From contig NZ_AYMV01000015.1 of assembly GCF_000633415.1 (NCBI RefSeq), positions 1 to 64,000 of the forward strand: a stretch of DNA of 64,000 nt, given 5' to 3'. This document shows positions 45,839 through 60,154 of the stretch, piece after piece; position 1 is the first letter of the stretch, and the number at the start of each line of letters is the position of its first letter. Made by a program: the position numbers and the translations under genes. Source of the stretch: Leucobacter sp. PH1c (GTDB taxonomy: Bacteria; Actinomycetota; Actinomycetes; Actinomycetales; Microbacteriaceae). The notes beneath the pieces are model-generated. The model ran no database searches. It was not told the DNA's origin and worked only from the letters and a program-made list of their open reading frames with translations.

Positions 45839-48553
45839 ATGGAGGATTCACGAAGACCCGGCCCCGGCGCTCCGCGCGCCGCATGGAGCGGTGACGGGGC
45901 TGCCCTCCACACCCGGCGCCGCGCCGGCATGACCGCCGCGGTTCCCGAGCGCCTCGACCGCGCGGTCGACGCGCTCGACCCCGAGGGCGCCGTTCTCCTG
46001 CTCCTCGGCGAGGCCGGCACTGGGCGGCTCGTCCTCGCCGAGGAGGCGGCCAGCGTGGTGGCCGCGCGGCTCCCCGGTCCGGGCCGGGTGATCGTGCTCC
46101 CCAACCCGCCGCACGCCGCGAGCGGGCACACCTCGGTGTTCGCCGAGCACTTCGCGGTCGCGCTCGAGGGCCGCACGGAGGCGGGGGAGATCGCCGAGCG
46201 GATCCTCGCGGGCCTCTTCGCGACGCCCGGGGCGGGCCCCGTCGTGCTCGTCGCCCCGAACGCCGATGGCTACTCGCCGCGCGACACCCGGCTCCTTGAA
46301 CTCCTGCTGCAGGACGAGCGGGTGCGGGGGATCGTCACCGCGAAGCAGCCGACGGGCGCGCTCGAGCGGCTCGGCGTCGGATCGGAGCGGCAGCAGCTCT
46401 CCGTCGCCCCGCTCGACCGGGTGGAGGCCGAGCGCTTCCTCTGCGCACTGCTCGGCGTCGACCGCATCGAGGCGGAGACTCTTCGCGGCTGGCTCGAGCT
46501 CGCGGCGGGGAACAGCTACGCGCTGGCGATGCTCGCGCTCGCCGCCGACAGTGCCGGTCGCCTGCGCCGCAGCCGCGGTGCCGCGTGGGCGCCGCACGAG
46601 CTCGACGCGGTGCCCGGCGAGTACACGCGGGTGATCCTCGACCCCTGCACGCCCGAGGAGATCGAGGCGCTCGAACTGGTCGCCCTCGCCGAGCCCATCA
46701 CCGAGACCGGGCTGCTCCGGAGCATCGACGCGACGCTGCTCGCCGCGCTCTTCGACCGCGGGCTCGTCGTCTCCCGGCCGCTGCCCGACGGCGTCGCGCT
46801 CGTCACGGGCCACCCGCTGCTCGCCACCGTGCTCCGCGCGGGGATGTCGCCCGTGCGCAGGATCCAGCTCAACGACCGGATCTTCCGCGTGCTCTCCGAC
46901 GGGCTCGGCGGCGTCGACCCCGTGTACACGCCCGTGCGGCTGATGCGCCTCGTCGTGTTCGGGATCGAGAGCGGGCAGCACCTGCCCTTCCCGTGGCTGT
47001 GGGCCGCGTTCGAGCTCACGGTGCGCGGCGGCGATCCCCGCCTCGTGCTGAACGTGGCGCGCGCCGTCGCCCTGCACCCTGACGCCGACCCGATGCAGGC
47101 GGGATCGGGGGCGCTCCGCGCCTGCCGCACCGCGCGCCTCATCGGGGACGACGGCAGCCTCCGCCCCCTGCTCGGCGTCGTGGAGCGCCTGCTCGCCGAC
47201 CCCGAGCGGGTCGCCGGCATGACCCCGATGCTCCGCGTGCGCCTCACGACGAGCCTCATCGAGCAGGACCTCCGCGACGACGGAGACGTGGACCTCGCGC
47301 TCGCGGCCCTCGACGCGCTCGAGGACCGGCTTGCAGCGGATGAGCAGCCCGTGCGCGAGGCCGTGCGCGGCAGCCGGGTGCTCGCCCTCGCCTACACAGG
47401 GCGGTTGCGCGCGGCGACGATCGCCGCCCCCGACGAGGCGGTGTCCGCCGACCTCAAAGCGGAGTGGATCCGCTCGCCGGCGCGGGCGCTCAACGGCCTC
47501 ATCCTGGATCAGCGCGGCGCTTTTGGGCGCGCGGTGGTGAACGCGGAGCACACCCGCCGCCTCAGCCGGCTCGGCCCGCGGGCCCGGCCCGACGTGATCG
47601 ACATGCAGGGCTTCTGCTGGCTGCTCGGGCACTGGGTCGGCGGCAGCGCCGAGCTCGCGCGGCGCGTGCTCGACGAGCTCGCGAGCGAGGCCTCCTCCGA
47701 CACGCACGCGGAGGCCCACTACTCGGGCTTCATCGAGGCGGGGGCCGTGCTGCTCGCCGTGCAGGAGGGACGCTGGGCCGACTCGGCGCAGAGCGCGGAG
47801 CGGCTGCTCGACCGGCTGGAGCGCCACGACAGCTACGGGATCGCGCCGCTCGTGCAGGCGGCGTTCGCGCTCGCGCTCGCGGTGCTGGGGGAGCGCGACG
47901 CCGCCGCCCGCGCGCTGCGCGCCTCGCTCCGCGGGACGCGCGGCATCGGCGAAGCGGTCGGCGGGCACCGCCGCATCCTCGCGCTCCGGGCGCGGCAGTG
48001 GCTCCGGGACCGGGACGTCGTCGCGGAAGCGCAGAGCGCCGCCGAGTGGGCGCACGCCGAGGGGCTCGAGCTGATCGAGCTGCAGGCCCTCCACGTCGCG
48101 GCGTTCGAGACGCGCACCGCGGGGCCCGGGGTGCTCGAGCGGGCCCGGGAGCTCGCGGTCGCGGTCGACCCGCCGCTCGGGGGCGCGTTCCTCGCGCACA
48201 TCGAGCGCATCGCGGTGGGGACCGAGGCCACCGCCGCCGACACCGACGAGCCCGAGGTGCGGCTCCTCGCCGAGCTGGGCGTCTGGCTGCCGCTGCCGCC
48301 CGCCGCCGAGCTCACGGCCCGCGAACGCGAGGTCGCCCTCCTCGCCTCGCTCGGCCACAGCAGCCGCTTCATCGCGGCGCGGCTGCACATCTCCGCGCGC
48401 ACCGTCGAGACGCACCTGTCGAACGTGTTCGGCAAGCTCGGGGTGGAGAACCGTGACGAGCTCAGGTTGTGGGCGGCGCGCGACCGGGCGAGCGCCCCCG
48501 ATGCGCCGCCCACGGAGGCCCCCGCGCCGGATCCGGTGCCCGAGCGCGGCTGA
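45839..48553 (+). CDS. Large LuxR-family regulator with degenerate ATPase module
   Basis: Protein of 904 aa with LAL/MalT-like layout: an NTPase-like N-terminal part, a long helical repeat region (about 280-830, TPR-like) and a C-terminal LuxR HTH with LTAREREVALLASLGHSSRFIA and ARTVETHLSNVFGKLGV. The P-loop position reads GEAGTGRLV, lacking the Lys and Ser/Thr of Walker A, so ATP binding is doubtful. The ATG at 45839 follows GAGGAG. No clear target gene is adjacent; the upstream gap contains AATTGTTGCAAT and GCACAATTGC, which share ATTG/CAAT half-sites. The LCP gene downstream has its own promoter. Confidence 0.8.
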   Translation: MEDSRRPGPGAPRAAWSGDGAALHTRRRAGMTAAVPERLDRAVDALDPEGAVLLLLGEAGTGRLVLAEEAASVVAARLPGPGRVIVLPNPPHAASGHTSVFAEHFAVALEGRTEAGEIAERILAGLFATPGAGPVVLVAPNADGYSPRDTRLLELLLQDERVRGIVTAKQPTGALERLGVGSERQQLSVAPLDRVEAERFLCALLGVDRIEAETLRGWLELAAGNSYALAMLALAADSAGRLRRSRGAAWAPHELDAVPGEYTRVILDPCTPEEIEALELVALAEPITETGLLRSIDATLLAALFDRGLVVSRPLPDGVALVTGHPLLATVLRAGMSPVRRIQLNDRIFRVLSDGLGGVDPVYTPVRLMRLVVFGIESGQHLPFPWLWAAFELTVRGGDPRLVLNVARAVALHPDADPMQAGSGALRACRTARLIGDDGSLRPLLGVVERLLADPERVAGMTPMLRVRLTTSLIEQDLRDDGDVDLALAALDALEDRLAADEQPVREAVRGSRVLALAYTGRLRAATIAAPDEAVSADLKAEWIRSPARALNGLILDQRGAFGRAVVNAEHTRRLSRLGPRARPDVIDMQGFCWLLGHWVGGSAELARRVLDELASEASSDTHAEAHYSGFIEAGAVLLAVQEGRWADSAQSAERLLDRLERHDSYGIAPLVQAAFALALAVLGERDAAARALRASLRGTRGIGEAVGGHRRILALRARQWLRDRDVVAEAQSAAEWAHAEGLELIELQALHVAAFETRTAGPGVLERARELAVAVDPPLGGAFLAHIERIAVGTEATAADTDEPEVRLLAELGVWLPLPPAAELTAREREVALLASLGHSSRFIAARLHISARTVETHLSNVFGKLGVENRDELRLWAARDRASAPDAPPTEAPAPDPVPERG

Positions 48554-48603
48554 GCGCCCGCCGCCAGGATCGCGCTTCCGAGCGCTCATACAGAGGTCTC
48601 GGG

Positions 48604-48609
48604 TACATT
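48604..48609 (+). promoter_or_regulatory. -10 box (TACATT) of the LCP gene
   Basis: TACATT lies 53 nt before the ATG at 48663; the leader contains GAGGAACGGG as ribosome binding site. Confidence 0.5.
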
Positions 48610-48662
48610 GGGCCTCTGCCGCTGTGCGTCCGACCCGGGCGCCCTGAGGAACGGGAAACTCT

Positions 48663-49952
48663 ATGGCCAAGAACACCGCAGGCGATGCCGCGCGCCCCGC
48701 ATTCGTGCGCCACGGCAAGCTGCGCCGATCGAACGCCTGGGGCAACGCGCTGCGCGTGCTGCTCACCACGGTCATCGTCGTCGCGCTCTCCGGGGTCGCC
48801 ACGGTCGGCTACGCCGTCTGGGGGCTCACCCAGAACCTCAACACCGTCGACCTCGGCACCGAGGCGAGCGGCGTGGGCGTGGGCGCGCAGTCGGTGGACG
48901 GCGAGCTCACGATCCTGCTCGTCGGCTCCGACACGCGTGCTGGCCAGGAGTACGACGACGGCGAGGAGGGCGAGCTCAACGACGTGAACCTGCTGCTTCA
49001 CGTCTCGGCCGACCACCAGAACGCGACCGTGCTCAGCCTGCCGCGCGACCTGATGGTGCCGTTCCCGAGCTGCCCCGGTCCGAACGGGGAGCCCGACTAC
49101 TTCCCGCCCATGAGCGAGCAGCAGCTCAACAGCGCCATGATGTACGGCGGCCTGCCCTGCGTGGCGCGCACCATCTCCGAGCTCACGGGCATGGAGATCC
49201 CCTACGCCGGGCTCATCACCTTCGACGGCGTCGTGGGTGTCTCGAACGCGCTCGGCGGCGTGGACGTCTGCCTCACGCAGCCCATCGTCGACGAGAAGGC
49301 CGACCTCGATCTCCCCGCGGGCATGAACACGCTCGTGGGCTGGGACGCGCTGCAGTTCCTCCGCACCCGCCACGGCGTGGGCGACGGCGGCGACACGAGC
49401 CGCATCAGCAACCAGCAGGTCTTCATGTCCGCGCTCGTGCGGAAGCTGAAGAGCGCGGACACGCTCTCTGATCCCGTGAAGGTGTACGCGCTCGCGAAGG
49501 CCGGCGTCGAGAACATGACCCTCTCGAGCAATATGGCGAGCGTCGAGTTCATGCAGGCCGTCGCCGGCACGGTGAAGGACATCGACCTCGACCGCATCAA
49601 CTTCGTCCAGTACCCCACCGAAACCCATCCGTACCAGGAGGGTCGCCTGCGGCCCGACTACGTGAACGCCGAGATCCTCATCAACCTGATGAAGAGCGGC
49701 GAGCCGTTCGCGGTGACCGGCGTGGGTGAGGGCGTCGCGGCGCAGGGCGCCGAGGGCGACGCGGCCGCGACGGACGCTCCCGCGACGGACGTCCCCGCCA
49801 CCGACGACCCGGCGGCGGAGGTCCCGGCGACCGACGGCACCGGCGAGACGCCGGCCACGCCGCAGGACACGGGGCCGACCAAGCTGCCCGAGAACATCAC
49901 GGGCCTCCAAGCGAGCAACGAGGCCTGCTCGGCCGGCAGAACGGTCTTCTAG
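48663..49952 (+). CDS. LCP (LytR-CpsA-Psr) family cell-wall glycopolymer ligase
   Basis: Membrane-anchored enzyme of 429 aa. A short cytoplasmic part and a helix at about 28-52 are followed by the extracytoplasmic LCP domain: ILLVGSDTRAG, LPRDLMVPF, GVDVCL and FLRTRHGVGDGGDTSRISNQQ, with the conserved Asp and Arg residues that bind polyprenyl pyrophosphate. LCP enzymes transfer wall teichoic acid, arabinogalactan or capsule from lipid carrier to peptidoglycan. The tail (about 365-400) has degenerate ATDxPATD repeats. Next downstream come tRNA-Ser and the pilus locus, also cell-surface functions. Confidence 0.9.
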   Translation: MAKNTAGDAARPAFVRHGKLRRSNAWGNALRVLLTTVIVVALSGVATVGYAVWGLTQNLNTVDLGTEASGVGVGAQSVDGELTILLVGSDTRAGQEYDDGEEGELNDVNLLLHVSADHQNATVLSLPRDLMVPFPSCPGPNGEPDYFPPMSEQQLNSAMMYGGLPCVARTISELTGMEIPYAGLITFDGVVGVSNALGGVDVCLTQPIVDEKADLDLPAGMNTLVGWDALQFLRTRHGVGDGGDTSRISNQQVFMSALVRKLKSADTLSDPVKVYALAKAGVENMTLSSNMASVEFMQAVAGTVKDIDLDRINFVQYPTETHPYQEGRLRPDYVNAEILINLMKSGEPFAVTGVGEGVAAQGAEGDAAATDAPATDVPATDDPAAEVPATDGTGETPATPQDTGPTKLPENITGLQASNEACSAGRTVF

Positions 49953-49970
49953 CCGGGCCGCTCCGGGCCC

Positions 49971-49998
49971 GCCGCGCAGTCGATTTCCGCTGCGCGGC
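49971..49998 (+). terminator. Hairpin after the LCP gene
   Basis: A 9-bp stem GCCGCGCAG/CTGCGCGGC with a 10-nt loop, 18 nt after the stop. No U tract. Confidence 0.5.
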
Positions 49999-50008
49999 CT
50001 CGGTCCGG

Positions 50009-50014
50009 TAGAAT
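50009..50014 (+). promoter_or_regulatory. -10 box (TAGAAT) of tRNA-Ser
   Basis: TAGAAT stands 20 nt before the mature tRNA 5' end. It is a close match to the -10 consensus. Confidence 0.55.
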
Positions 50015-50034
50015 GGCTCACGTTGTTCGCGTAT

Positions 50035-50126
50035 GGAGACGTGCCGGAGCGGCCGAACGGACTTCACTGCTAATGAAGGGTCGGGGTTAAACTCGACCGG
50101 GGGTTCAAATCCCCCCGTCTCCGCCA
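50035..50126 (+). tRNA. tRNA-Ser (anticodon GCT)
   Basis: A 92-nt class II tRNA. The acceptor GGAGACG pairs with CGTCTCC, the anticodon stem CTTCA/TGAAG encloses CTGCTAA with anticodon GCT, a long variable arm follows, and the T arm GGGGGTTCAAATCCCCC is perfect. Discriminator G and CCA are encoded. It reads AGC and AGU codons. Confidence 0.96.
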
Positions 50127-50138
50127 GATGAACAACCG

Positions 50139-50175
50139 AAATCCCCGATGATACTGAGGTAGCATCGGGGATTTT
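50139..50175 (+). terminator. Intrinsic terminator after tRNA-Ser
   Basis: A 12-bp stem AAATCCCCGATG/CATCGGGGATTT with a 12-nt loop, ending in a T run. Confidence 0.85.
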
Positions 50176-50481
50176 GCTGTCTGCGGGAGGTGCTCGCATC
50201 CCAGGGCGCTTCGGGGCGGCCGGTGTACGCCGTTCATTTTGCGCCAATGTTCTGTCAATTCGCGCACGTTCGGCGCGAACGGGCCCCTCCGCGCCGCTGC
50301 ACGCGCTATCGTCTGCGCTGAAGCGGGTCACGGCTGGCGAAGGCCCCGAAGTCTCGACCGCGGAGCGCTGAGTGCGCGCCTCCGCGATGCGCGGGATAGG
50401 CGGAGGCGACTCGTCGGCCGGGACCGGGGTTCGGCAACAGTGCGGTTGCCGCTGCGCTGCGTGCGGCTCTTGGGGGGTCGC

Positions 50482-50510
50482 GTCAGATTGCCGCGGCGGA
50501 TCGTGTCTGA
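50482..50510 (+). promoter_or_regulatory. Pilus-locus promoter-like element, copy 1 (before sortase)
   Basis: GTCAGA (50482-50487), 17 nt, GTCTGA (50505-50510), inside the longer conserved stretch GCGTCAGATTGCCGCGGC...GTGTCTGAATG. TCAGA and TCTGA are inverted repeats 18 nt apart. A GGTGTGCAG motif follows at 50520-50528. The sortase ATG is 39 nt after the second box. The same element recurs before the pilin gene and, inverted, before the sigma gene. Confidence 0.65.
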
Positions 50511-50549
50511 ATGCATGAAGGTGTGCAGTGCGATGCGGATTGGGGAGCT

Positions 50550-51497
50550 ATGGGGAAGCGTGCGCAGACGGGCGGATCCGAGGGGCCGGCGCGATGGCGG
50601 CCGAGTGGGCTGACCTGGAGCATCGTGGTGCTCGCGCTCGGTGGAATGGTCGCGGGACTGTATCCGATGACCGCCGCATGGGTGTCGTCCTACAACCAGT
50701 CGCAGGTGATCCGCAGCGCGGATCGAGCGCTCGACGTGATCGTGCCCGGCCGCGAAGAGCAGCTCGCGGCCGCGCGCATGTACAACGAGGCCCTCGCGGC
50801 CGGAGTGCGTCTGGAGGCCGGGGGGAATGTTCCCGTCGGAACGGGCAACGCATCAGGCACCGACCTCCGCTACGAGGATCTGCTCGTCGCGAATGACGAC
50901 GGGCTGATGGCGCGGATCCAGATCCCCGGCATCGGTGTGGACCTTCCCGTATATCACGGGACTTCCGACGAGACCCTGCTCCGGGGCGCGGGCCACCTGG
51001 AGGGCTCGCACCTGCCCGTGGGAGGGGCAGGAACGCGCTCGGTGATCACTGCGCACCGGGGCCTGGCGAACTCGACCATGTTCTCCAACCTGGATCGGGT
51101 GCGGCGGGGGGACACGTTCGCGGTCGAGGTCATGGGGGAGGTGCTGAGCTACCGCGTCACGGAGATCGAGGTGATCGATCCCAAGGAGACGAGCTCGTTG
51201 CGGGCGAGGCCGGGCAAGGATCTCGTGACGCTCATCACCTGCACGCCCCTCGGCGTGAACTCGCACCGAATCGTGGTGACCGGCGAGCGGACGACGCCGA
51301 CGCCGCCCGCCGACCTCGATCGCGCGAGGCAGGCGCCGCAGATTCCGGGGTTCCCGTGGTGGGCCGTGATCGGCGGCGGTGGCGTGCTCGTGGCCGGCGC
51401 GTACCTCGTGTGGCAGGGCCGCGCGGACGGGCGCCGCGCGGCTCGGCCCGGTCGGGAATCCGCGGGCGCACGCGACAGGAATGTAACGGATAGGTAA
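50550..51497 (+). CDS. Class C sortase (pilus polymerase)
   Basis: Membrane transpeptidase of 315 aa that cleaves pilin sorting signals and links pilin subunits through lysine. TM helices lie at about 22-42 and 270-292, the two-helix topology of class C. Catalytic triad: His169 (ITAHRG), Cys231 (TLITC) and Arg240 (NSHRIV). YNEALA near 79 and LPVYHGTSDETLLRGAGHLEGSHLPVGG are typical. I find no D-P-[FW] lid motif between the first helix and the catalytic core. The ATG at 50550 follows GGGGAG; the in-frame ATG at 50511 directly abuts the promoter-like box. It lies first in the locus, before the pilins. Confidence 0.92.
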   Translation: MGKRAQTGGSEGPARWRPSGLTWSIVVLALGGMVAGLYPMTAAWVSSYNQSQVIRSADRALDVIVPGREEQLAAARMYNEALAAGVRLEAGGNVPVGTGNASGTDLRYEDLLVANDDGLMARIQIPGIGVDLPVYHGTSDETLLRGAGHLEGSHLPVGGAGTRSVITAHRGLANSTMFSNLDRVRRGDTFAVEVMGEVLSYRVTEIEVIDPKETSSLRARPGKDLVTLITCTPLGVNSHRIVVTGERTTPTPPADLDRARQAPQIPGFPWWAVIGGGGVLVAGAYLVWQGRADGRRAARPGRESAGARDRNVTDR

Positions 51498-51500
51498 CGG
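51483..51500 (+). repeat. GTAACGG direct repeat upstream of the pilin promoter
   Basis: GTAACGG occurs at 51483-51489 and 51494-51500, 11 bp apart (one helical turn), ending 2 nt before the -35-like box of copy 2. It also overlaps the sortase stop. It could bind an activator. Confidence 0.45.
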
Positions 51501-51502
51501 GC

Positions 51503-51531
51503 GTCAGATGCCGCTCCGCAGTGGTGTCTGA
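51503..51531 (+). promoter_or_regulatory. Pilus-locus promoter-like element, copy 2 (before pilin)
   Basis: GTCAGA (51503-51508), 17 nt, GTCTGA (51526-51531), in GCGTCAGATGCCGCTCCG...GTGTCTGAGTG. Spacing is identical to copy 1. A GGTGTGCAG motif follows at 51548-51556, here in the loop of a terminator hairpin. The pilin start is 86 nt after the second box. Confidence 0.65.
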
Positions 51532-51539
51532 GTGACCGG

Positions 51540-51568
51540 ACGCCGGAGGTGTGCAGGCCGGCGTTTTT
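51540..51568 (+). terminator. Intrinsic terminator inside the pilin leader
   Basis: Stem ACGCCGG (51540-51546) with CCGGCGT (51558-51564), an 11-nt loop and a T run through 51568. It lies after the copy 2 element and before the pilin gene. It could end sortase transcripts or attenuate the pilin message. Confidence 0.7.
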
Positions 51569-51616
51569 GCATCAGGGCCTGAACGAGGGCTCTGTCTGAG
51601 GGAAGGAGACGTTCAG

Positions 51617-53134
51617 GTGACTGAACGCAACACGAAGCGGCGAATCGCCGCACTGCTCGGTACTGCGGCCGTGGGGATCACGGCCTTGATGGGGGCTGGC
51701 TCGGCCGCATTCGCGGCTCCCCAGAGCTACGGAGACATCGATTTCGATCGGGACGGCTCGCTCACGGTCCACAAGTACCTGCACCAGAAGACCCCGGGCT
51801 CGGGCGACATCAGCCAGGCTCCCGCGAACGGTGACTTCACCGACCCGGTGCAGGGCGTGGTCTTCACCGCGTACCCGCTCCTCAAGGACGGCGCGGCCAT
51901 CGACCTCACCCGCGCCGGCAGCTGGGACACGCTCGCCGCCCTCACCCCCGGTGACGCGTGCACCGCGCCCTCCGGCTACTCGCTCGGTGCGCCGATCGTG
52001 CTGCCGACCACCGACAACACCGGTGCGGCGAACGTAGCGCTCCCGATCGGGGCGTACCAGGTCTGCGAGACGTCGGCTCCGTCGAACATCATCGATGCGG
52101 CCTCGCCGTTCATCGTGACGATCCCGATGCCGCATGAGACGGGCTGGGTCTACGACGTACACGCTTACCCGAAGAACGGCGAGGCGACGATCGAGAAGTC
52201 GATCGAGCAGCAGCAGGAGACCGGTCTCGGCTCCGTCGTGAAGTTCCCGGTGACCGCGCCGATCCCGACGGTGGGCGACGCGTGGACCGGCTTCGCGATC
52301 CGAGACACCCTCGATGCGCGTCTCGCGCCCGCTGCGGCCGCAGACATCGCGGTGACCGCGGATGGCACGGCGCTCGACGCCTCGTACTACGAGATCACGA
52401 TCTCGGGCCAGCAGATCACCATGAACTTCACCGCGGCCGGTGTCGCGTGGCTGAACGAGGGCCCGAACGCGCAGGCCGGGACGAAGATCCAGGTCGTCTT
52501 CGCGGGCACCGTCACCTCGCTCGGCAACGGGACGATCACGAACGACGCGCAGCTCTGGGTGAACAACCCGGGCTTCGATCCGAGCACGAACCCCCCGATC
52601 CCCTCGAACGAGGTCGAGACGCACTGGGGCTCCCTCGCCGTGCAGAAGCGCGCGGCCGGTACCACGGGCACCGAGGGGCGCCTGAACGGCGCCGTCTTCG
52701 AGGTCTACAACGCCGTCGACCCCTACGCGGCTGACTGCTCGACCGCCGAGGCGACCGGCGACGCCGTGGTGGTCAACGGTGAGACGAGCTTCGCCTCGCA
52801 GAACGGCGGCGTCATCGCCATCCCCGGTCTCTTCGTGAGCGACAACGTGAACCCCGTCATCGATGCCCAGCAGCGCTGCTACGTGCTGAAGGAGATCGCG
52901 GCTCCGGCCGGCTACGTCCTCCCCGCAGACCCGTTCACCGCTGTTGTGGTGAAGATCGGGCAGACCACGGTGTCGGACAACGTCGAGATCCTGAACACGC
53001 AGCAGGACGTCCCTGAGCTCCCGCTCACCGGTGCGGCCGGTCAGGTGATGCTCATCGCTGCCGGTGCTGCCGCCGTCGCGGTTGCGGCAGGTCTGGTCCT
53101 GATGAACCGCCGCCGTCAGTCGGCTGACATCTAG
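51617..53134 (+). CDS. Major pilin, LPXTG-anchored, SpaH/EbpB-like
   Basis: Shaft pilin of 505 aa. The signal peptide ends near residue 33 (SAAFA). A pilin motif, WVYDVHAYPKN at about 177-187, supplies Lys186 for polymerisation. An isopeptide-forming fold is suggested by SLTVHKYLH near 48 and the IEKSIEQQ segment. The E-box is CYVLKEIAAPAGYVLP. The sorting signal LPLTG at about 468-472 is followed by a hydrophobic helix and NRRRQSADI. The GTG start at 51617 follows AAGGAG. The sortase upstream should polymerise it. An 18-bp hairpin follows, probably giving an excess of this message over the tip gene. Confidence 0.93.
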   Translation: MTERNTKRRIAALLGTAAVGITALMGAGSAAFAAPQSYGDIDFDRDGSLTVHKYLHQKTPGSGDISQAPANGDFTDPVQGVVFTAYPLLKDGAAIDLTRAGSWDTLAALTPGDACTAPSGYSLGAPIVLPTTDNTGAANVALPIGAYQVCETSAPSNIIDAASPFIVTIPMPHETGWVYDVHAYPKNGEATIEKSIEQQQETGLGSVVKFPVTAPIPTVGDAWTGFAIRDTLDARLAPAAAADIAVTADGTALDASYYEITISGQQITMNFTAAGVAWLNEGPNAQAGTKIQVVFAGTVTSLGNGTITNDAQLWVNNPGFDPSTNPPIPSNEVETHWGSLAVQKRAAGTTGTEGRLNGAVFEVYNAVDPYAADCSTAEATGDAVVVNGETSFASQNGGVIAIPGLFVSDNVNPVIDAQQRCYVLKEIAAPAGYVLPADPFTAVVVKIGQTTVSDNVEILNTQQDVPELPLTGAAGQVMLIAAGAAAVAVAAGLVLMNRRRQSADI

Positions 53135-53145
53135 TCAAGTCGGGA

Positions 53146-53185
53146 GCGGTGCGGGAGGGCGCCAGGGGGCGCCCTCCCGCACCGC
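53146..53185 (+). terminator. Hairpin between major pilin and tip pilin genes
   Basis: A perfect 18-bp stem (53146-53163 with 53168-53185) and a 4-nt loop without U tract. It probably acts as a partial terminator that lowers tip-pilin expression relative to the shaft. Confidence 0.7.
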
Positions 53186-53255
53186 ACTCCGCCCGTGGGG
53201 CGGGTCAATTCGGGTGTCGGTTGGGGTGGAGCGTGTGAGTAAGGAAGCAACGAAC

Positions 53256-56087
53256 ATGAAGACGAAACGGCGGGGCACGGGCCTCCGCGGTGCAGCACGA
53301 CGGCAGGGGATCGGCGCCGGCGTCGCGTTCGGAATTGCGCTGACGCTGCTGGGCGGGTCACTGGCCCCCGCGCTTGCCGTCGGCAACGAGCCGGTTCCCG
53401 TTGACGAGACGAGTGCCACGACTGACGGGCCGGTGCTCGACGCCGAATGGCAGGTCAGCGAGGGCGCCTCGGGCGAGGCCGCAGCGCCCCCCGCGGCGGA
53501 GCAGACGGGCGAGCCGTCGGACGAAGCGGCGAACGAACTGCCGGACGGAGCGTCGGGCGAGTCCTCCGGCGAACCGGCGGAGGCGCCGCAGGTGTCGCCG
53601 CTCGCCATCCCGCAGCCCACAGCGAGGACCGCGGTGATCACCGTGAAGGTCGGCGGCGATCGGCGGGCCGACGGCTCGGTGGCGCCCCTCGCCGGGGTCC
53701 GCCTCGCCCTCCACGGCGCCGGGACCGGCACGGGTGGAGGCGGCGCAAGCGGCGCCGGCGTGATTCCTCCGCAGGGCTCGGCGGGCGCGCGGTACAACGC
53801 GGCCTGGAGCTGGACCACCTGTACCTCCGACGCCGACGGCGACTGCAGCTTCGAGGTCCCGGTCCGAAGCGGATCGATCTCGAGTACGGGCGTCCCGCAG
53901 GACACCCGGTTCTGGGTCGTGCAGGAGGCGGCACCGAGCGGGTGGTACATGAACCCGAACGTGCGGATCGGCTCGTTCGGAGCCTCGCCTGAGCTCACCT
54001 GGCAGTACCGCTTCCGCACCGACACTCGGCTGCGGGCCGGCGAGACCTACGCCTCGACGACGGCCATGCCCTGGAACACCACCGCGGCGGATCCGGACCG
54101 CTACTTCATGCGGAACCGCGTCGATGCGAACACCGAGGACTGGTACGCCGCGAACGTCGGACGCACCACGGGCGTGTGGAACCAATCACGGGAGAACCCG
54201 CCCATGATCGGCGGATGCCCCATCGACATCGCGCTGATCGCCGACACCTCGGGCTCGTTGGGCGCGACCGGCATGGCCGGCCTCAAGGAGACCATGTCCT
54301 CCTTCGTCGCCGCGTTCCAGGGGACGAACGCGCGCATGGCGGCGTTCTCCTTCTCGAACCTGTCGCCCGGAGGCGGAGCGAGCAACCATCCGACGCTCAT
54401 GCCGGTCACCACTTCGGCGCAGGCCGCCGCGTTCACCGCGCAGTTCGCCTCCTGGACGCCCGGCGGCGGCACCAACTGGGACGCGGGGTTCGCAGCGGCG
54501 GCGAACGCCCAGCCGCACTACGACCTCGCGATCCTCCTGACGGACGGGAACCCGACCGTTCTGCGCGACAACCCCGGCTCGGGTTCGAGCGCGTACAACT
54601 CCATCCAGGACGTCGACGCCGGAGTGTTCTCCGCGAACCAGCTGAAGCAGGAAGGCACCCGCGTGCTCAGCCTCGGCGTGGGCCCCGCGCTCACGGTCGC
54701 GAGCGAGGCCAACCTGCGGTCAGTGTCCGGCCCCGCCAAGAACACCGATTACTTCCGGGCCGGCAGCTTCGATGAGGCCACGCAGGTGCTGGTCGAGCTC
54801 GCCCAGAAGCGCTGCACCGGCAGCATCGGCGTGCAGAAGCTCATCATCCCCGAGGGCGGCACCGTCTCCGACGCCGTGCCCGCTCCCGCGGGCTGGGAGT
54901 TCGGAGCGGGAACCACGACCGATGCGGCGCGGCTCACCCCGGCGGCACAGACCACCGTCGCCGGTGGCGACGGCAAGGTCGACTTCGGCCTGAGCTTCAC
55001 CCCGGGCGCACGGAGCGTCGGCGTGCAGATCCACGAGGTGCAGCAGGACGGCTACACCCACGTGCCCGTCGGCGGGCAGAACGCCGTGTGCGTGAACCGG
55101 AACAGCGGGGCGCAGGTCGCCGTCACCAACTCGGGCGACGCCGCACGGCCGGCCTTCGGAGTGGTGGCGAACGAGAACGAGCGGATCGAGTGCAAGATCT
55201 ACAACCAGCCGAAGTCGCCTGGCGCGATCGACGCGGTGAAGTCCTCGGACCCCGCGTCGGGGACCGCGGTGACGCCGGGCCAAGAGGTGAGCTACACCCT
55301 CACGTTCACGAACTCGGGCGGCCAGGCAGCCCCTGTTGAGTATGACGACGTGCTCACCGGTGTGCTCGACGATGCGGATCTCATCGGCACGCCCACTGCG
55401 CAGTCGCCCCTCGCGGCGAGCTACGATGCGGGCACCCAGCGCATTCGGGTCACCGGCACGCTTCCCGCCGGGGACGTCAAGACCGTGACCTACCGCGTGA
55501 AGGTCAAGGAGGAACTGCCGGAGACGAGCGACGGCCGACTCGGAAACTTCATCGTGACGACCGGGGAGGAACCGCCGACCGAGTGCGAGCCGGAGGATCC
55601 GCACTGCACCGAGCATCCCGTGGTGGCCACGCTCTCGTGGAGCAAGATCGACGGCGCCGAGCCGGCGAACCTGCTCAGCGGATCGACGTGGGTCCTCACG
55701 CCGTACGATGCCGCTGGGCAGCTCGTCCCTTCGGCCGCGATCACCGTCGAGGATTGCGTGGCGGAGACCGAGGCCGAGTGCACCGGCGCGGACACGGACC
55801 CGCGTGCCGGGAAGTTCCGTCTCGAGCAACTCGCCCCCGGGCGGTACTCCCTGACGGAGACCGTGGCCCCGCCCGGATACCAGTTGCTCGACGCGCCGAT
55901 CGAGGTCGTCCTGAACGCGAACCTCGCCCTCGGTGGGATCGTGAACACGCAGTCCGAGGTTCCCGTGCTGCCGCTCACCGGCGGCCTGGGAGCGTCGTCG
56001 ATCTTCCTCGGCGCCGCGGGCCTCGGCACGCTCGTCGTCCTCGGCCTGCTGCTCCAGCGCCGTCGCTCGATGATGGAGCGCGCATAA
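53256..56087 (+). CDS. VWA-domain tip pilin/adhesin, LPXTG-anchored
   Basis: Surface protein of 943 aa. Signal peptide of about 40 residues, then an Ala/Glu/Pro-rich stretch to about 115. A von Willebrand A domain follows from about 315 with the MIDAS motif DTSGS and LLTDGNPT. After that come a DUF11/SpaA-type beta domain (DPASGTAVTPGQEVSYTLTF) and a Cna-B-like domain with the E-box YSLTETVAPPGY. The sorting signal LPLTG, a helix and an RRR tail end it. This is the layout of tip adhesins such as RrgA or SpaC. The ATG at 53256 is favoured because AAGGAA stands before it; in-frame GTGs at 53214-53235 are alternatives. Confidence 0.9.
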   Translation: MKTKRRGTGLRGAARRQGIGAGVAFGIALTLLGGSLAPALAVGNEPVPVDETSATTDGPVLDAEWQVSEGASGEAAAPPAAEQTGEPSDEAANELPDGASGESSGEPAEAPQVSPLAIPQPTARTAVITVKVGGDRRADGSVAPLAGVRLALHGAGTGTGGGGASGAGVIPPQGSAGARYNAAWSWTTCTSDADGDCSFEVPVRSGSISSTGVPQDTRFWVVQEAAPSGWYMNPNVRIGSFGASPELTWQYRFRTDTRLRAGETYASTTAMPWNTTAADPDRYFMRNRVDANTEDWYAANVGRTTGVWNQSRENPPMIGGCPIDIALIADTSGSLGATGMAGLKETMSSFVAAFQGTNARMAAFSFSNLSPGGGASNHPTLMPVTTSAQAAAFTAQFASWTPGGGTNWDAGFAAAANAQPHYDLAILLTDGNPTVLRDNPGSGSSAYNSIQDVDAGVFSANQLKQEGTRVLSLGVGPALTVASEANLRSVSGPAKNTDYFRAGSFDEATQVLVELAQKRCTGSIGVQKLIIPEGGTVSDAVPAPAGWEFGAGTTTDAARLTPAAQTTVAGGDGKVDFGLSFTPGARSVGVQIHEVQQDGYTHVPVGGQNAVCVNRNSGAQVAVTNSGDAARPAFGVVANENERIECKIYNQPKSPGAIDAVKSSDPASGTAVTPGQEVSYTLTFTNSGGQAAPVEYDDVLTGVLDDADLIGTPTAQSPLAASYDAGTQRIRVTGTLPAGDVKTVTYRVKVKEELPETSDGRLGNFIVTTGEEPPTECEPEDPHCTEHPVVATLSWSKIDGAEPANLLSGSTWVLTPYDAAGQLVPSAAITVEDCVAETEAECTGADTDPRAGKFRLEQLAPGRYSLTETVAPPGYQLLDAPIEVVLNANLALGGIVNTQSEVPVLPLTGGLGASSIFLGAAGLGTLVVLGLLLQRRRSMMERA

Positions 56088-56106
56088 CCGGGGCCGGGAG
56101 GCTCGC

Positions 56107-56148
56107 GGCCGGTCGGTCTTTCCCCGTGCGGGGGAGGGCCGACCGGCC
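56107..56148 (+). terminator. Terminator after the tip pilin gene
   Basis: Long stem GGCCGGTCGG.../...CCGACCGGCC, 19 positions per arm with a few G-U or unpaired positions, beginning 20 nt after the stop. Confidence 0.6.
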
Positions 56149-56221
56149 CTTGGGCGTTTCTCGGGGCTGCGTCCGACCGGACGTGCGCGGCCCCGCGCTC
56201 GGGCCCGCGGTCGAGTTCGAG

Positions 56222-56265
56222 GACTGCCCGCCGAGTGTGATGGGGGGACATCTCGGCGGGCAGTC
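56222..56265. other. Perfect 14-bp inverted repeat with 16-nt loop
   Basis: GACTGCCCGCCGAG (56222-56235) pairs with CTCGGCGGGCAGTC (56252-56265). It could be a terminator for a leftward transcript from the inverted pilus element, or a protein-binding site. Confidence 0.5.
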
Positions 56266-56283
56266 GTCGGGCGGCCCTCGACA

Positions 56284-56298
56284 CGAACTCGGAGTTCG
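56284..56298. other. 15-bp perfect palindrome (7-1-7)
   Basis: CGAACTC-G-GAGTTCG. With almost no loop it is more likely a protein-binding site than an RNA hairpin. Confidence 0.4.
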
Positions 56299-56323
56299 AA
56301 TGGCGAGGGAAGATCCGCTCCAC

Positions 56324-56363
56324 GCAGGAGCACAGCGCCGGGGGAGGGCATCTGCGCTCCTGC
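56324..56363 (-). ncRNA. Possible 5' stem-loop of a small RNA antisense to the pilus region
   Basis: On the minus strand GCAGGAGC and GCTCCTGC (56324-56331, 56356-56363) form an 8-bp stem with a CG-rich inner part. If the inverted pilus element at 56370-56398 works as a leftward promoter, the transcript would start here and could run to the 14-bp stem at 56222-56265, about 140 nt. This is conjecture without expression data. Confidence 0.25.
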
Positions 56364-56369
56364 ACCTCT

Positions 56370-56398
56370 TGAGACACCGCTTGCCGCGGGAATCTGAC
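56370..56398 (-). promoter_or_regulatory. Pilus-locus element, copy 3, inverted (before the sigma gene)
   Basis: On the minus strand GTCAGA (56393-56398), 17 nt, GTCTCA (56370-56375), within GCGTCAGATTCCCGCGGC...GTGTCTCAAG. It matches copy 1 closely. It lies 107-136 nt upstream of the sigma start but points away from it. As the core is dyad-symmetric, it may serve as a regulator site for the sigma gene as well as a leftward promoter. Confidence 0.6.
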
Positions 56399-56505
56399 GC
56401 GGCGAAGGCGAGTTTTTCTGACATCTCGCGCTCTGATCGGCCCCGCACCGGCCGGGCGGCGCGCACACCCGAAGTTGACGGACGCGAAGTGAAAGGGCTC
56501 CACCG

Positions 56506-58353
56506 TTGAAGAACATCGATCCTGCTCAGGCCTCCGACATCGCCCTGGTCGAGCTCACGCGGAGTGGCGTGAACGAGGCCTACGCCGAACTCTGGAAGCG
56601 GCACGCTCCCGCCGTCGTCACGGCCGCCCGATACTTCACGGGATTCGATCCCGAGGATGTCGCCCAGGAGGCGTTCCTCCGCATCCTGCAGCAGATCCAG
56701 GCCGGCCGGGGCCCGGATACCGCGTTCCGGGCCTACGCGATCATGACGGCGCGGAACGTTGCCACGAACATGGCGAGAGACCGGAAGAGCACCGAGATCA
56801 CCGGCGTCGATGACAGCGCCTTCGAGGCGGCGAGCGCCGAGATTCCCGGAACCGAGGCCCAGGTCCTCAGAAGCGCCTTCACGCAGCAGGTGTTCGCATC
56901 GCTGCCGACCCGGTGGCAGGAGGTGCTCTGGTACCGGGAGGTCGAGGACCTGCCCGTGCAGGAGTTCTCGACCTATCTCGGGATGACGGAGAACGCGACG
57001 TCCGCGCTCCTCAAACGCGCGAAGGAGGGTTTCAAGCAGGCCTGGATCGCAGCCAACCTCGAACCGGTGGCCGGGCTGCCGCCTGAGTGCCAGTGGGTGG
57101 TCGACAAGCTGCCCCAACTCGTGCGGGGGAAAGCGACGATGCACACCCGCCGGCGCGTGACCGCTCACTTCGAGACGTGCGCCCGGTGCGCGATTCTCTC
57201 TGAGCAGTCGGAGCAGCTGCACTCCCGCCTGGCGATGGTGCTCCTCCCCGCGCTGCTCGGCGGTGCTGGCGCCACCGGCTACCTCGCCTCATCCCAGTGG
57301 GGCGCCGCGACGGCGGGCGGGGCACCGGTGTTCGACCCGGCCGCGGCGTCGTCGCTGGCGCCGTTCACGGCGCCGCCAGCCGAGCCCGCGCTCGCTCCGC
57401 TCGCACCGGGAGACCCCGTGGCGGCGCTCGCGGGGGGCACCGTGTCGAAGATCGTGGGGGTGCCGCTCGCCGCGCTCGCGGTGGGTGCGCTCGCGGTCTC
57501 CATCGCATTCACTGTCGCGGCGTCCCCGGGCTCGTCTCCCGCCGCCGTCGAACTGCAGGCCGAGGGGCCGAAGCACCCGCAGACCGCGCCGAGCGAGCGC
57601 GACGCGGGGGACGGCGAGCCGAGCGGAAAGGGAGCCGGGGCGAATGATGCGGGCGACCGCGGGGCGGACGCCGACGGGGCGAGCGACGACGGGGTGAGCG
57701 GCGGCGGGGCCACCACCGGGGACGACTCGGCGGGTGACGGCGATGGGGCGTCGGGGGAGAACGGCGCCGAGACCGGCGACGACGGCTCGGCCTCCGCGCC
57801 GACCTCGATTGCGTACGCCCCGCTCAGCGGCGCACCCATCGACGGCGTGGAACCCGGGGTGTTCCCTCGACTGGTCGGCCTCGGTGCGTCGCAGGCGACG
57901 ATCGATCTCACCTTCGCCAACGAGTACGGCGAGGCGGTCACCCGCACGGTAGCCGCGGACCTGCAGGGCCGATGGGCCGCGAGCACTGTCCCCCTCATGG
58001 GGCAGGTCACGGTGACCGGGCGGCAGGCGTACACGATGGCGGATGGCGATCGCGTCGATGCGGAGGTGGTGCTCGGCACCTTCGCCGTCGGGTGGGGCCT
58101 CGACATCGCGGTCGACATCGAGTCCGCACAGAGCACACGCATCCGTGTGACCGGCGTCACCGGTGAGACGAGAAACCAGGTCGTCAATATCGAATCGACT
58201 GCGGTCGGGACCCTCGCCGCGCGGCAGGTCGCGACGGCGCCCGGCGAGGTGGTGCTGATCGTGCCGTACGCACGGGCCAGCCTCGGCGACCTGCACTACT
58301 GGCAGGGAGACACCTCAGAGGGGCCCCGGCGCGTCTGGTGGCGTCAACTCTGA
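56506..58353 (+). CDS. Sigma factor (ECF type) fused to zinc-finger, membrane and C-terminal domain
   Basis: Protein of 615 aa. Sigma region 2 lies at about 25-93 (DVAQEAFLRILQ) and region 4 at about 122-178 (LPTRWQEVLWYREVEDLP). Then a ZAS-like anti-sigma motif H221-x3-C225-x2-C228, hydrophobic helices at about 242-262 and 316-340, an acidic Gly/Asp/Ala linker (350-430) and a beta-rich domain to the end. Normal ECF factors are about 180-200 aa with a separate anti-sigma. This fusion should tie promoter choice to a membrane or surface signal. Start is TTG at 56506 after GAAAGGG; no better start exists in frame. It lies directly after the pilus genes and is their likely regulator. Confidence 0.85.
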   Translation: MKNIDPAQASDIALVELTRSGVNEAYAELWKRHAPAVVTAARYFTGFDPEDVAQEAFLRILQQIQAGRGPDTAFRAYAIMTARNVATNMARDRKSTEITGVDDSAFEAASAEIPGTEAQVLRSAFTQQVFASLPTRWQEVLWYREVEDLPVQEFSTYLGMTENATSALLKRAKEGFKQAWIAANLEPVAGLPPECQWVVDKLPQLVRGKATMHTRRRVTAHFETCARCAILSEQSEQLHSRLAMVLLPALLGGAGATGYLASSQWGAATAGGAPVFDPAAASSLAPFTAPPAEPALAPLAPGDPVAALAGGTVSKIVGVPLAALAVGALAVSIAFTVAASPGSSPAAVELQAEGPKHPQTAPSERDAGDGEPSGKGAGANDAGDRGADADGASDDGVSGGGATTGDDSAGDGDGASGENGAETGDDGSASAPTSIAYAPLSGAPIDGVEPGVFPRLVGLGASQATIDLTFANEYGEAVTRTVAADLQGRWAASTVPLMGQVTVTGRQAYTMADGDRVDAEVVLGTFAVGWGLDIAVDIESAQSTRIRVTGVTGETRNQVVNIESTAVGTLAARQVATAPGEVVLIVPYARASLGDLHYWQGDTSEGPRRVWWRQL

Positions 58354-58551
58354 TCGGCGCGACCGCCAGATCCACTGCCCGATCTCGATGAGCGCGAAGA
58401 CGAGCAGCAGGATCGCTGATCCCAGCACCACGACGAGTGCGGGACCCGGAGCGATCCGAGCGGCCGCGGAGAACGCGACCATGGAGCCGCAGAACAGCAG
58501 CGCGGCGAGCGCCGCCGCCCGCTTCCCGCTGCGCGGCGTCTTCGGGATCAT
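58315..58551 (-). CDS. Small two-helix membrane protein
   Basis: Predicted protein of 78 aa with two hydrophobic helices (about 11-30 and 35-57) and basic ends. No family recognised. It overlaps the 3' end of the sigma gene on the other strand by 39 nt. The ATG at 58551 or the GTG at 58560 could start it; GAGGAC before the GTG supports the latter equally well. Codon usage in the hydrophobic part looks coding. It is transcribed in the same direction as the glycosyltransferase gene just upstream. Confidence 0.5.
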   Translation of the reverse strand: MIPKTPRSGKRAAALAALLFCGSMVAFSAAARIAPGPALVVVLGSAILLLVFALIEIGQWIWRSRRSELTPPDAPGPL

Positions 58552-58588
58552 GCGCTCCACAGGGGTGTCCTCATCTCGATGAGCGGCC

Positions 58589-60154
58589 TCAGCGAGGCTC
58601 GCCCTTCACCGGGCGGAGGGAGACGTTCGCCTCGCGGGTCGCGTAGACGCGCTTCGCGGCGCTCGCGCGGATCGCCCCCGGTGTGGCGCGCAGGCGGAAG
58701 CGGCCGCCCGATCCGCCTGCGGCATTCCCCATCACCGACCACAGGTCGACGCGGTCGTCGCCGTAGCTGCTCAGCAGCTCGGGGGAGAGGACGAAGGCGT
58801 ACTCCAGGGCTCCCGTGTCGGGCGCAACCCGGACGAGCCGGCCCGTGAGCACGGTCGCGCGGCTGCGCCGACGCCCGCTCAGCAGGAGCCGGAGCTCGGG
58901 GGCGCCGTGCGCGAGGCCGGCGCCCACCCGGCGGCTGAGGCCGCGCGCATAGCGGTTCCCCCCGAACGCGCTGAGCCCCCGGTCGATTGCGCGGCCGAGA
59001 CGCAGGCGGCCGGCGCTCGGCAGATTCCCGTCATGGAGTTCCTCGGGGCGCGCCGGCAGGGAGGCGACGCGCAGCTCGATCCCGCGCGCCGTACGCTCCG
59101 CGGCGGCAACCCGCGCATCGTGCGCGAAGCTCTGCTCGGCGCCGATGAGCGCGTCGAGGCCGGCCACGTCGCCCGCGCGGATGAGCTCGATCTTGCGGCG
59201 GTCGGTCGGGTGCGCGACGGTCGCGTCGAGCCGCTTCGGGAGGAACTCCTCGAGGAACGCCCGGTGCAGCTCCACCCAGTGCGCGCGACGCTCGGCGGGC
59301 ATCGGCAGCCACCGCTTCGGCACGTAGAACCGCAGGCCCTTCCGCTGGAAGAACTGCAGCACGAGCTTTTGCGCGGCGGCGGTATCGGGAACCCCGTCGA
59401 GGAGGAGCTGCGCGATGCGCCGGCAGGAGGCGACGTAGTTCTCGGGCTCGATCGTGCGCGAGGAGATGTTCTGCCCGTCCTCGCGCAGCGCGATGAGGTA
59501 GAGCGGGTCTTTCCCGCAGAACAGGATCCGGTTCGCCCGCGTGTACGCCTCGGTGACGAAGATCCCGTCCTCGAGTCGCACCGGCTCCTCCGGGAAACGG
59601 AGGCCGAGCCGGAGCAGGAACTCGCGGCGGAAAAGCTTCTGCGGCGACAGCGTCTCCATGGCGCGGGCGATCGAGATCGGCCCCGCTGGGTGCCGCCGGA
59701 ACAGCGACTGCACGAAGCGACCGCCCGTGCCGGCGAAGCGCGGGATCACGATATCCGCGGGATCCTCGCCCGCGGGCTGCTCGGCCAGCTCCACCATCTC
59801 GCGCAGCGCGCTCGGCGTCATCGTGTCGTCGGCGTCCATGAAGAAGACGTACTCGCCGCGCGCGCGATCGATGCCGCGATTGCGGGGGATGCCCGGCCAG
59901 CCGCTGTTCGGCTGGTGCAGCGCGATGATGCGCGGATCCGCCGCGGCGAAGCGGTCGATCTCCGCTCCCGAACCGTCCGAGGAGCCGTCGTCGACCGCGA
60001 TGACCTCCCAGTCCGTCAGCTCCTGCGCGATCAGCGAGTCCAGCGTGCCCGTGAGGTAGGGCATCGCGTTGTAGACGGGGATGACGACGCTGACGCGCGG
60101 CGCGCGCCCGGCGCTCGCCGTGGACTCCGTGTTCGCTGAGGGCTCCGTGCTCAC
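58589..60154 (-). CDS. Family 2 glycosyltransferase
   Basis: GT-A enzyme of 521 aa. The catalytic domain is in the first 230 residues: VVIPVYNAMPYL, VDDGSSDGS, GIPRNRGIDRARGEYVFFMDADD (DxD metal site) and RLEDGIFVTEAYTRAN. The C-terminal 290 residues form helical and beta parts like those of teichoic-acid glycosyltransferases (TarS/TarP class) and related polysaccharide enzymes. There is no signal or membrane helix. It probably decorates a cell-surface polymer. The GTG start at 60154 has GGAG a few bases upstream. A long leader (about 150 nt) connects it to the palindromic region at 60300. Confidence 0.85.
   Translation of the reverse strand: MSTEPSANTESTASAGRAPRVSVVIPVYNAMPYLTGTLDSLIAQELTDWEVIAVDDGSSDGSGAEIDRFAAADPRIIALHQPNSGWPGIPRNRGIDRARGEYVFFMDADDTMTPSALREMVELAEQPAGEDPADIVIPRFAGTGGRFVQSLFRRHPAGPISIARAMETLSPQKLFRREFLLRLGLRFPEEPVRLEDGIFVTEAYTRANRILFCGKDPLYLIALREDGQNISSRTIEPENYVASCRRIAQLLLDGVPDTAAAQKLVLQFFQRKGLRFYVPKRWLPMPAERRAHWVELHRAFLEEFLPKRLDATVAHPTDRRKIELIRAGDVAGLDALIGAEQSFAHDARVAAAERTARGIELRVASLPARPEELHDGNLPSAGRLRLGRAIDRGLSAFGGNRYARGLSRRVGAGLAHGAPELRLLLSGRRRSRATVLTGRLVRVAPDTGALEYAFVLSPELLSSYGDDRVDLWSVMGNAAGGSGGRFRLRATPGAIRASAAKRVYATREANVSLRPVKGEPR

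Follow-up and report, generated by a model that had tools for sequence, protein, structure and literature searches.

A candidate sigma-factor promoter shared by sortase and pilin genes, and a predicted small RNA, at a pilus locus of Leucobacter sp. PH1c

In the fused sigma/anti-sigma proteins of the extracytoplasmic function (ECF) groups ECF48, ECF52 and ECF53, a sigma domain, a zinc finger, a membrane helix and an outer domain are joined in one chain, from which release by proteolysis is expected, according to passages of two published accounts (PMC8999054, PMC5826349). The targets of such proteins are barely known. The best-studied member, SCO4117 of Streptomyces coelicolor, is described in passages of one of these accounts as pleiotropic, with a carbohydrate-binding outer domain and a tentative motif, CSGYN-17bp-SRHA, before 29 genes, which its authors call theoretical (PMC5826349). 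Here we describe a promoter-like element beside a sigma gene of this kind in Leucobacter sp. PH1c, within a window of 64,000 nucleotides (nt) that comprises positions 1 to 64,000 of the forward strand of contig NZ_AYMV01000015.1 (assembly GCF_000633415.1). Three copies of the element lie in a sortase-pilus locus, and the element is probably the cognate promoter of the neighbouring membrane-tethered ECF sigma factor, which would use it to drive the sortase gene, the shaft pilin gene and a small RNA predicted from the sequence. The protein has the same one-chain layout as SCO4117, as far as the latter is set out in the passages cited (PMC8999054, PMC5826349). Unlike that of SCO4117, the motif found here is sharp and restricted to one locus, and the outer part of the protein resembles Ig/FN3-like domains in a low-confidence model. 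The passages on SCO4117 and on ECF48, ECF52 and ECF53 mention no small RNA partner, whereas the present locus has a predicted one. The elements and genes concerned are:

50481 to 50510, plus strand: element 1, promoter-like, 40 nt upstream of the sortase start codon
50550 to 51497, plus strand: class C (pilus) sortase gene
51502 to 51531, plus strand: element 2, promoter-like, 86 nt upstream of the major pilin start codon
51617 to 53134, plus strand: SpaH/EbpB-type major (shaft) pilin gene
53256 to 56087, plus strand: gene for a large, LPXTG-anchored protein with VWA and SpaA domains, the probable tip pilin
56370 to 56399, minus strand: element 3, promoter-like, pointing away from the sigma gene
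56506 to 58353, plus strand: gene for an ECF sigma factor fused to a zinc finger, a hydrophobic helix and a C-terminal Ig-like part

The strict pattern GTCAGA-N17-GTCT(G/C)A occurs at 50482-50510 (+), 51503-51531 (+) and 56370-56398 (-), exactly where a preliminary description of this DNA had placed it; the third copy lies in the gap between the large tip pilin gene and the ECF sigma gene. These three matches compare with 0.01 expected in the window, and none of 100 dinucleotide shuffles reached three. A genome scan, proposed in the preliminary description as a check and run here with the strict pattern (GTCAGA-N17-GTCTSA), revealed no copies beyond the pilus locus: the whole 3.12 Mb assembly holds 3 matches, all at that locus, and the reversed-pattern control gave 0. 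With a weight matrix built from 28 elements of ten loci, the three window copies among them, these copies scored 35.8, 31.3 and 31.3, and the next window site 5.3. The flanks had also been said to agree. This holds for the extended box cGTCAGAT, which is common to the copies, and a GGTG(TG)CAG-like sequence does follow each of them, but at differing distances: the 9-mer GGTGTGCAG stands at 50520-50528 and 51548-51556, unequally far behind elements 1 and 2, and GGTGCAG follows copy 3, close to where the predicted RNA behind it begins. The RNAs predicted in some relatives likewise begin near GTGCAG or GTACAG.

Conservation was evaluated in 54 genus genomes, among them that of PH1c itself, and in 398 genomes of the family (genomes are given as G and loci as L with a number). 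A search with the sigma protein found relatives at 43-87% identity in G007, G022 (two copies), G003, G004, G053, G032 and G015 of the genus, and the family search added G172, from another genus, at 56% identity. The strict pattern matched in 16 of the 54 genus genomes; matching genomes without a close sigma orthologue were taken as chance, the surroundings being inspected in two only (G015 at 73 kb, and G051), and both of these matches fell within long open frames. A wider pattern, CGTCRGAY-N16-GTCTNW, gave 22 matches in nine genomes with a sigma orthologue, and all 22 lay within 7 kb of the sigma gene; read in reverse, it gave 3 matches in the same genomes, all in G004. From hits with up to two mismatches at ten sigma loci we picked by hand the 28 elements that entered the matrix, leaving out hits inside genes or with no gene or unit behind them. 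They precede the sortase gene (6), the major pilin gene (6), an RNA unit (9), the sigma gene (3; G032, G053 and G015), the tip pilin gene (2) and other genes of G015 (2). The element thus stands before the sortase gene in six genomes and before the major pilin gene in six, G172 included, and the conservation beside sortase, pilin and sigma genes that had been named as a check is found in relatives as far as another genus.

ECF promoters consist of two boxes at fixed spacing, with a -10 box usually of GTC type, and the 28 elements have both features: GTCT is present in 28/28 and TCAGA in 23/28, with a 17-nt gap in 28/28 that is partly due to the selection. The window and G007 have identical boxes but differing spacers. 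The confinement to the locus and the invariant GTCT agree with the promoter-like character that the element had been assigned; it is also directional. Three points tell against this reading or restrict it. The wider pattern was fixed after the loci had been seen, so that the strong part of that result is the confinement of 22/22 matches and not their count; the consensus of the 28 elements is in part built in by a selection that admitted up to two mismatches; and G022, which carries the sigma gene twice, has no exact match to the wider pattern, its elements deviating in a few places.

The preliminary description had left open whether the sigma factor or a dimeric regulator reads the element, and had pointed to an inverted repeat, TCAGA/TCTGA. 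Copies 1 and 2 do have the repeat, yet it occurs in only 6 of the 28 elements of window and relatives, whose second arm mostly reads GTCTAT, GTCTTA, GTCTCA or similar. Since GTCT is invariant and the repeat is not, a dimer operator is unlikely, and this candidate was rejected on account of its unconserved second arm. Stated in full, the alternative would have a dimeric regulator bind TCAGA-N18-TCTGA beside an ordinary promoter; the perfect repeat in copies 1 and 2 speaks for it, and a suitable regulator gene could still lie elsewhere in the genome. However, it is the directional boxes GTCAGA and GTCT that are kept among the relatives, and a search of 48500-58700 gave no promoter-like site of sigma-70 type, which leaves the operator highly improbable. 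As to the sigma factor, we infer from linkage and co-occurrence that the protein itself may read the element.

Some sites near or resembling the element are recorded here as side observations. In G053 a weaker hit excluded from the set, GTGGGA-N17-GTCTCA at L066 19756 (-), precedes a different surface-protein-like gene and may belong with the others, which would extend the regulon. The sigma orthologue of G015 (L067, 5600-8518) is split by transposase-like frames; that locus retains an element toward sigma and two more before a glycosyltransferase-like fragment and a surface protein. Repeated palindromic GTCAGAC-N-GTCTGAC sites occur in G036 and G037 (L014, L027, L015, L028), which have no close sigma orthologue, and are probably an unrelated operator.

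The sigma protein matches TIGR02937 with 66.1 bits (cut-off 42.9) and Sigma70_r2 with 45.4 bits (24), and Sigma70_r4_2 with 25.1 bits, slightly below its cut-off of 25.7; it has sigma regions 2 and 4 only, as an ECF-type factor does. A zf-HC2 zinc finger above its cut-off (residues 195-229) and a hydrophobic peak (residues 316-340) follow C-terminally to the sigma domain, and a long outer extension includes a beta-rich part at residues 436-614 (low-confidence model). This architecture is that of the ECF48/52/53 fused sigma/anti-sigma proteins; no Pfam or NCBIfam match in the sigma protein was to a carbohydrate-binding module, a trait of ECF52. The structure model of the whole protein has a mean predicted local distance difference test score (pLDDT) of 54.9 and was used only at the level of domains. 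The best solved match of the N-terminal part is E. coli sigma-E. The nearest structures to the C-terminal part are the Ig/FN3-like adhesin repeats 7dm0, 2yn3 and 6xi3 (Z about 9), with a large root-mean-square deviation and on a low-confidence model.

The element goes with this particular sigma subfamily. Of 30 loci examined, L089 (G172) has it, and the 29 that carry a different relative of the sigma protein (about 31-45% identical) all lack it at up to one mismatch; none of the 75 loci in the next sigma group (L113-L187), which come from Agromyces, Microbacterium, Leifsonia and others, contains the exact wider pattern either. Their counterpart is GTCAT-N17-GTCTC, which reads toward or away from the sigma gene and occurs in the 500 bp before it in 35 of the 75 loci (44 sites), at least 3 of the 75 belonging to the genomes from which the motif had been read; elsewhere in the same loci there are 4 sites in 1.41 Mb, and the reversed pattern gave 1 site. 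As the boxes change with the sigma subfamily, it is simplest to assume that every sigma recognizes an element of its own. In 18 of the 75 loci an element reads away from the sigma gene and fronts a strongly folding stretch, in which open frames exist, as expected in GC-rich DNA. Twelve of these stretches, from Agromyces, share an invariant GGGGAACACGCC in a stable hairpin, G-rich as against C-rich in the present group; their consensus fold has 5 of 34 pairs changed on both sides, with a covariation term of only -0.56. With somewhat more doubt than belief, we suggest that the membrane-tethered ECF sigma factors of the Microbacteriaceae might as a class combine a protein with a dedicated structured small RNA that is encoded next to it and activated by it, each subfamily having its own promoter code (GTCAGA/GTCTNW; GTCAT/GTCTC) and its own RNA.

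Sortase, shaft pilin and sigma gene had been proposed to form one self-contained regulon. In outline this stands for the sortase and the shaft pilin, but not for the sigma gene of this window: copy 3, which had been taken to drive it, lies on the minus strand and faces away from the sigma gene (56506-58353, +), a point missed in the preliminary description. The best sigma-facing site of the window scores -5.2 in the matrix scan, compared to 31.3-35.8 for the three copies. The sigma-side element points away in all six loci in which the tip pilin gene is followed by sigma (the window, G007, G003, G004 and both loci of G022), while in G032 and G053 two copies stand back to back, one facing sigma and the other facing away; a sigma-facing copy is also present in G015. 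Copy 3 might act in both directions, or backward, and so drive sigma after all, as copies 1 and 2 are nearly their own reverse complement and the second copies of G032 and G053 suggest that element control of sigma exists in relatives. We regard this as improbable, because copy 3 read backwards scores just -5.2 and the reverse boxes are poorer still in G003, G004 and G022, where the -10 box is GTCTAT. It counts against our reading of the locus, however, that the element leaves the control of the sigma gene itself unexplained in this window, which has no sigma-facing copy.

The roughly 150 nt behind copy 3 fold strongly into a structure with C-rich loops and a hairpin like that of a terminator, and would make a small RNA with the following parts:

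56215 to 56366, minus strand: predicted small RNA downstream of element 3, its start inferred from the -10 box and its end from the terminator-like hairpin
56322 to 56365, minus strand: 5' hairpin of the predicted RNA, with CCCUCCCCC in its loop
56218 to 56269, minus strand: 3' terminator-like hairpin of the predicted RNA, with CCCCCC in its loop

This putative member of the regulon, absent from the preliminary description, is in our view its most interesting part. In the relatives each away-facing copy is likewise followed by a hairpin-folding stretch that ends in a strong terminator-like hairpin, making nine loci in all; T-rich sequence follows that hairpin in G053, G172, G003 and G004. In G172 the unit, with its own element, stands upstream of the sortase gene and not beside sigma. 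All nine RNAs have exactly two C-runs of at least four nt, which fall mostly in predicted loops. When near-identical pairs are reduced to one, this is true of 7/7 RNAs and is reached by 0.35% of dinucleotide shuffles (P 0.0035). The fold z-scores of the seven range from -2.7 to -11.6, aided by the terminator hairpin, and the 5' hairpin alone folds clearly better than shuffles in four of them. The two loci of G022 preserve stems of the 3' hairpin through paired changes.

An unlikely alternative is that copy 3 is a promoter but no functional small RNA follows it, only spacer with stacked terminators, the remnant 5' end of a gene now lost, or an antisense transcript that serves no purpose. In its favour, the terminator-like hairpin accounts for much of the fold strength, the sequence hardly aligns between distant loci and no target was found; but nine loci share the orientation and layout, the parts were retained when the unit moved, the two C-runs recur in 9/9, the stems of the two G022 RNAs change in pairs, and the degenerate second locus of G022 retains sigma and unit despite a pilin gene cut short. 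What weighs against our reading is, first, that the 5' hairpin is not significant in 3/7 RNAs and that the total number of C-runs is not above shuffles (P 0.14). Second, among 28 pairs of RNA and local start region in seven genomes the lowest P was 0.025 (the sigma leader of G007, 10 nt, 55 nt before the start), as expected by chance in 28 tests. Third, G-tracts precede the start of 10/25 locus genes compared to 14/44 background genes, which gives no support for a pilus-gene target. Pairing of CUUCCCUC with the pilin Shine-Dalgarno sequence in the window and G007 gave P of about 0.2.

Aligned directly, the nine RNAs agree poorly beyond the promoter. Rfam gave no credible match: the only rows for the RNA stretch are weak and far below their cut-offs, and most come from microRNA models of animals or plants that hit the terminator stem. 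A small protein common to the RNA stretches was not seen by eye in three frames at six loci, with no formal test, and frames are open by chance in GC-rich DNA. The second locus of G022 (L065) was observed to have a second sigma copy with away-facing element and RNA unit, though the match to the major pilin at that locus is limited to its end.

The closest known RNA is B11, the mycobacterial 6C RNA, whose two C-rich loops block G-tracts in ribosome-binding sites, according to passages of PMC10470900. The predicted RNA has the two hairpins with C-rich loops that define the likeness to 6C/B11 (RF01066), a matter of resemblance only, and differs in that it is tied to a pilus/sigma locus and has an ECF-like element in front of it. 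Against the window stretch the RF01066 covariance model had no hit at E thresholds of 5 or 10, and in seven loci it had none at the gathering score; it found no 6C elsewhere in the own genome either, a search of limited sensitivity given that the model passed its cut-off in 0/14 control genomes. At a guess, and by analogy, the predicted RNA could act like 6C/B11.

E. coli sigma-E is an ECF sigma factor with the small RNAs MicA and RybB in its regulon, which is the likeness to the present locus; these are not known to be encoded beside the sigma-E gene or to be related in sequence to the predicted RNA.

By analogy with other fused sigma/anti-sigma proteins, the Ig-like part would sense a signal outside the cell and thereby set the sigma domain free; with RNA polymerase, the freed sigma would start transcription at cGTCAGAT-N16-GTCTNW. 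Three transcripts would arise in the window: that of the sortase, that of the shaft pilin, perhaps extending into the tip pilin gene, and the small RNA from copy 3, directed away from sigma. The hairpins of this RNA would expose C-rich loops, the likeliest use of which would be pairing with G-rich ribosome-binding sites, as in mycobacterial 6C/B11. If this is true, sortase pili would have a private, membrane-sensed switch, the predicted RNAs would form a new group of C-rich small RNAs, and the sigma subfamilies with their elements would supply naturally occurring sigma/promoter pairs that are distinct from each other.

With the sortase-assembled pilus clusters of Actinobacteria of the SpaA, SpaD and FimP types, the present cluster shares the class C sortase, the SpaH/EbpB-type shaft pilin and the large LPXTG tip protein, and it adds an ECF sigma gene dedicated to it and a private promoter. 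Our literature search found no such sigma gene and private promoter in a sortase-pilus cluster in print, and, with most subscription papers outside its reach, no paper on an ECF sigma factor controlling sortase pili in this family or on the predicted RNA. One further feature lies behind the tip pilin gene:

56107 to 56148, strand unspecified: hairpin directly past the tip pilin gene, probably its terminator

Directly behind element 2, the pilin leader contains a hairpin, CGCCGG-(11 nt)-CCGGCG-TTTTT (51541-51568), which the terminator scan missed because of its long loop. It would either attenuate transcription or terminate the sortase transcript; the same hairpin is found in G007, and not in that form in 4 other leaders that were folded. 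A tRNA gene (50035-50123) lies immediately upstream of the pilus cluster, which is patchy across the genus and possibly an inserted island. The own genome also has two more relatives of the sigma gene, L078 (contig C28) and L077 (contig C43), one of which adjoins another sortase/pilin cluster and one of which has internal stop codons.

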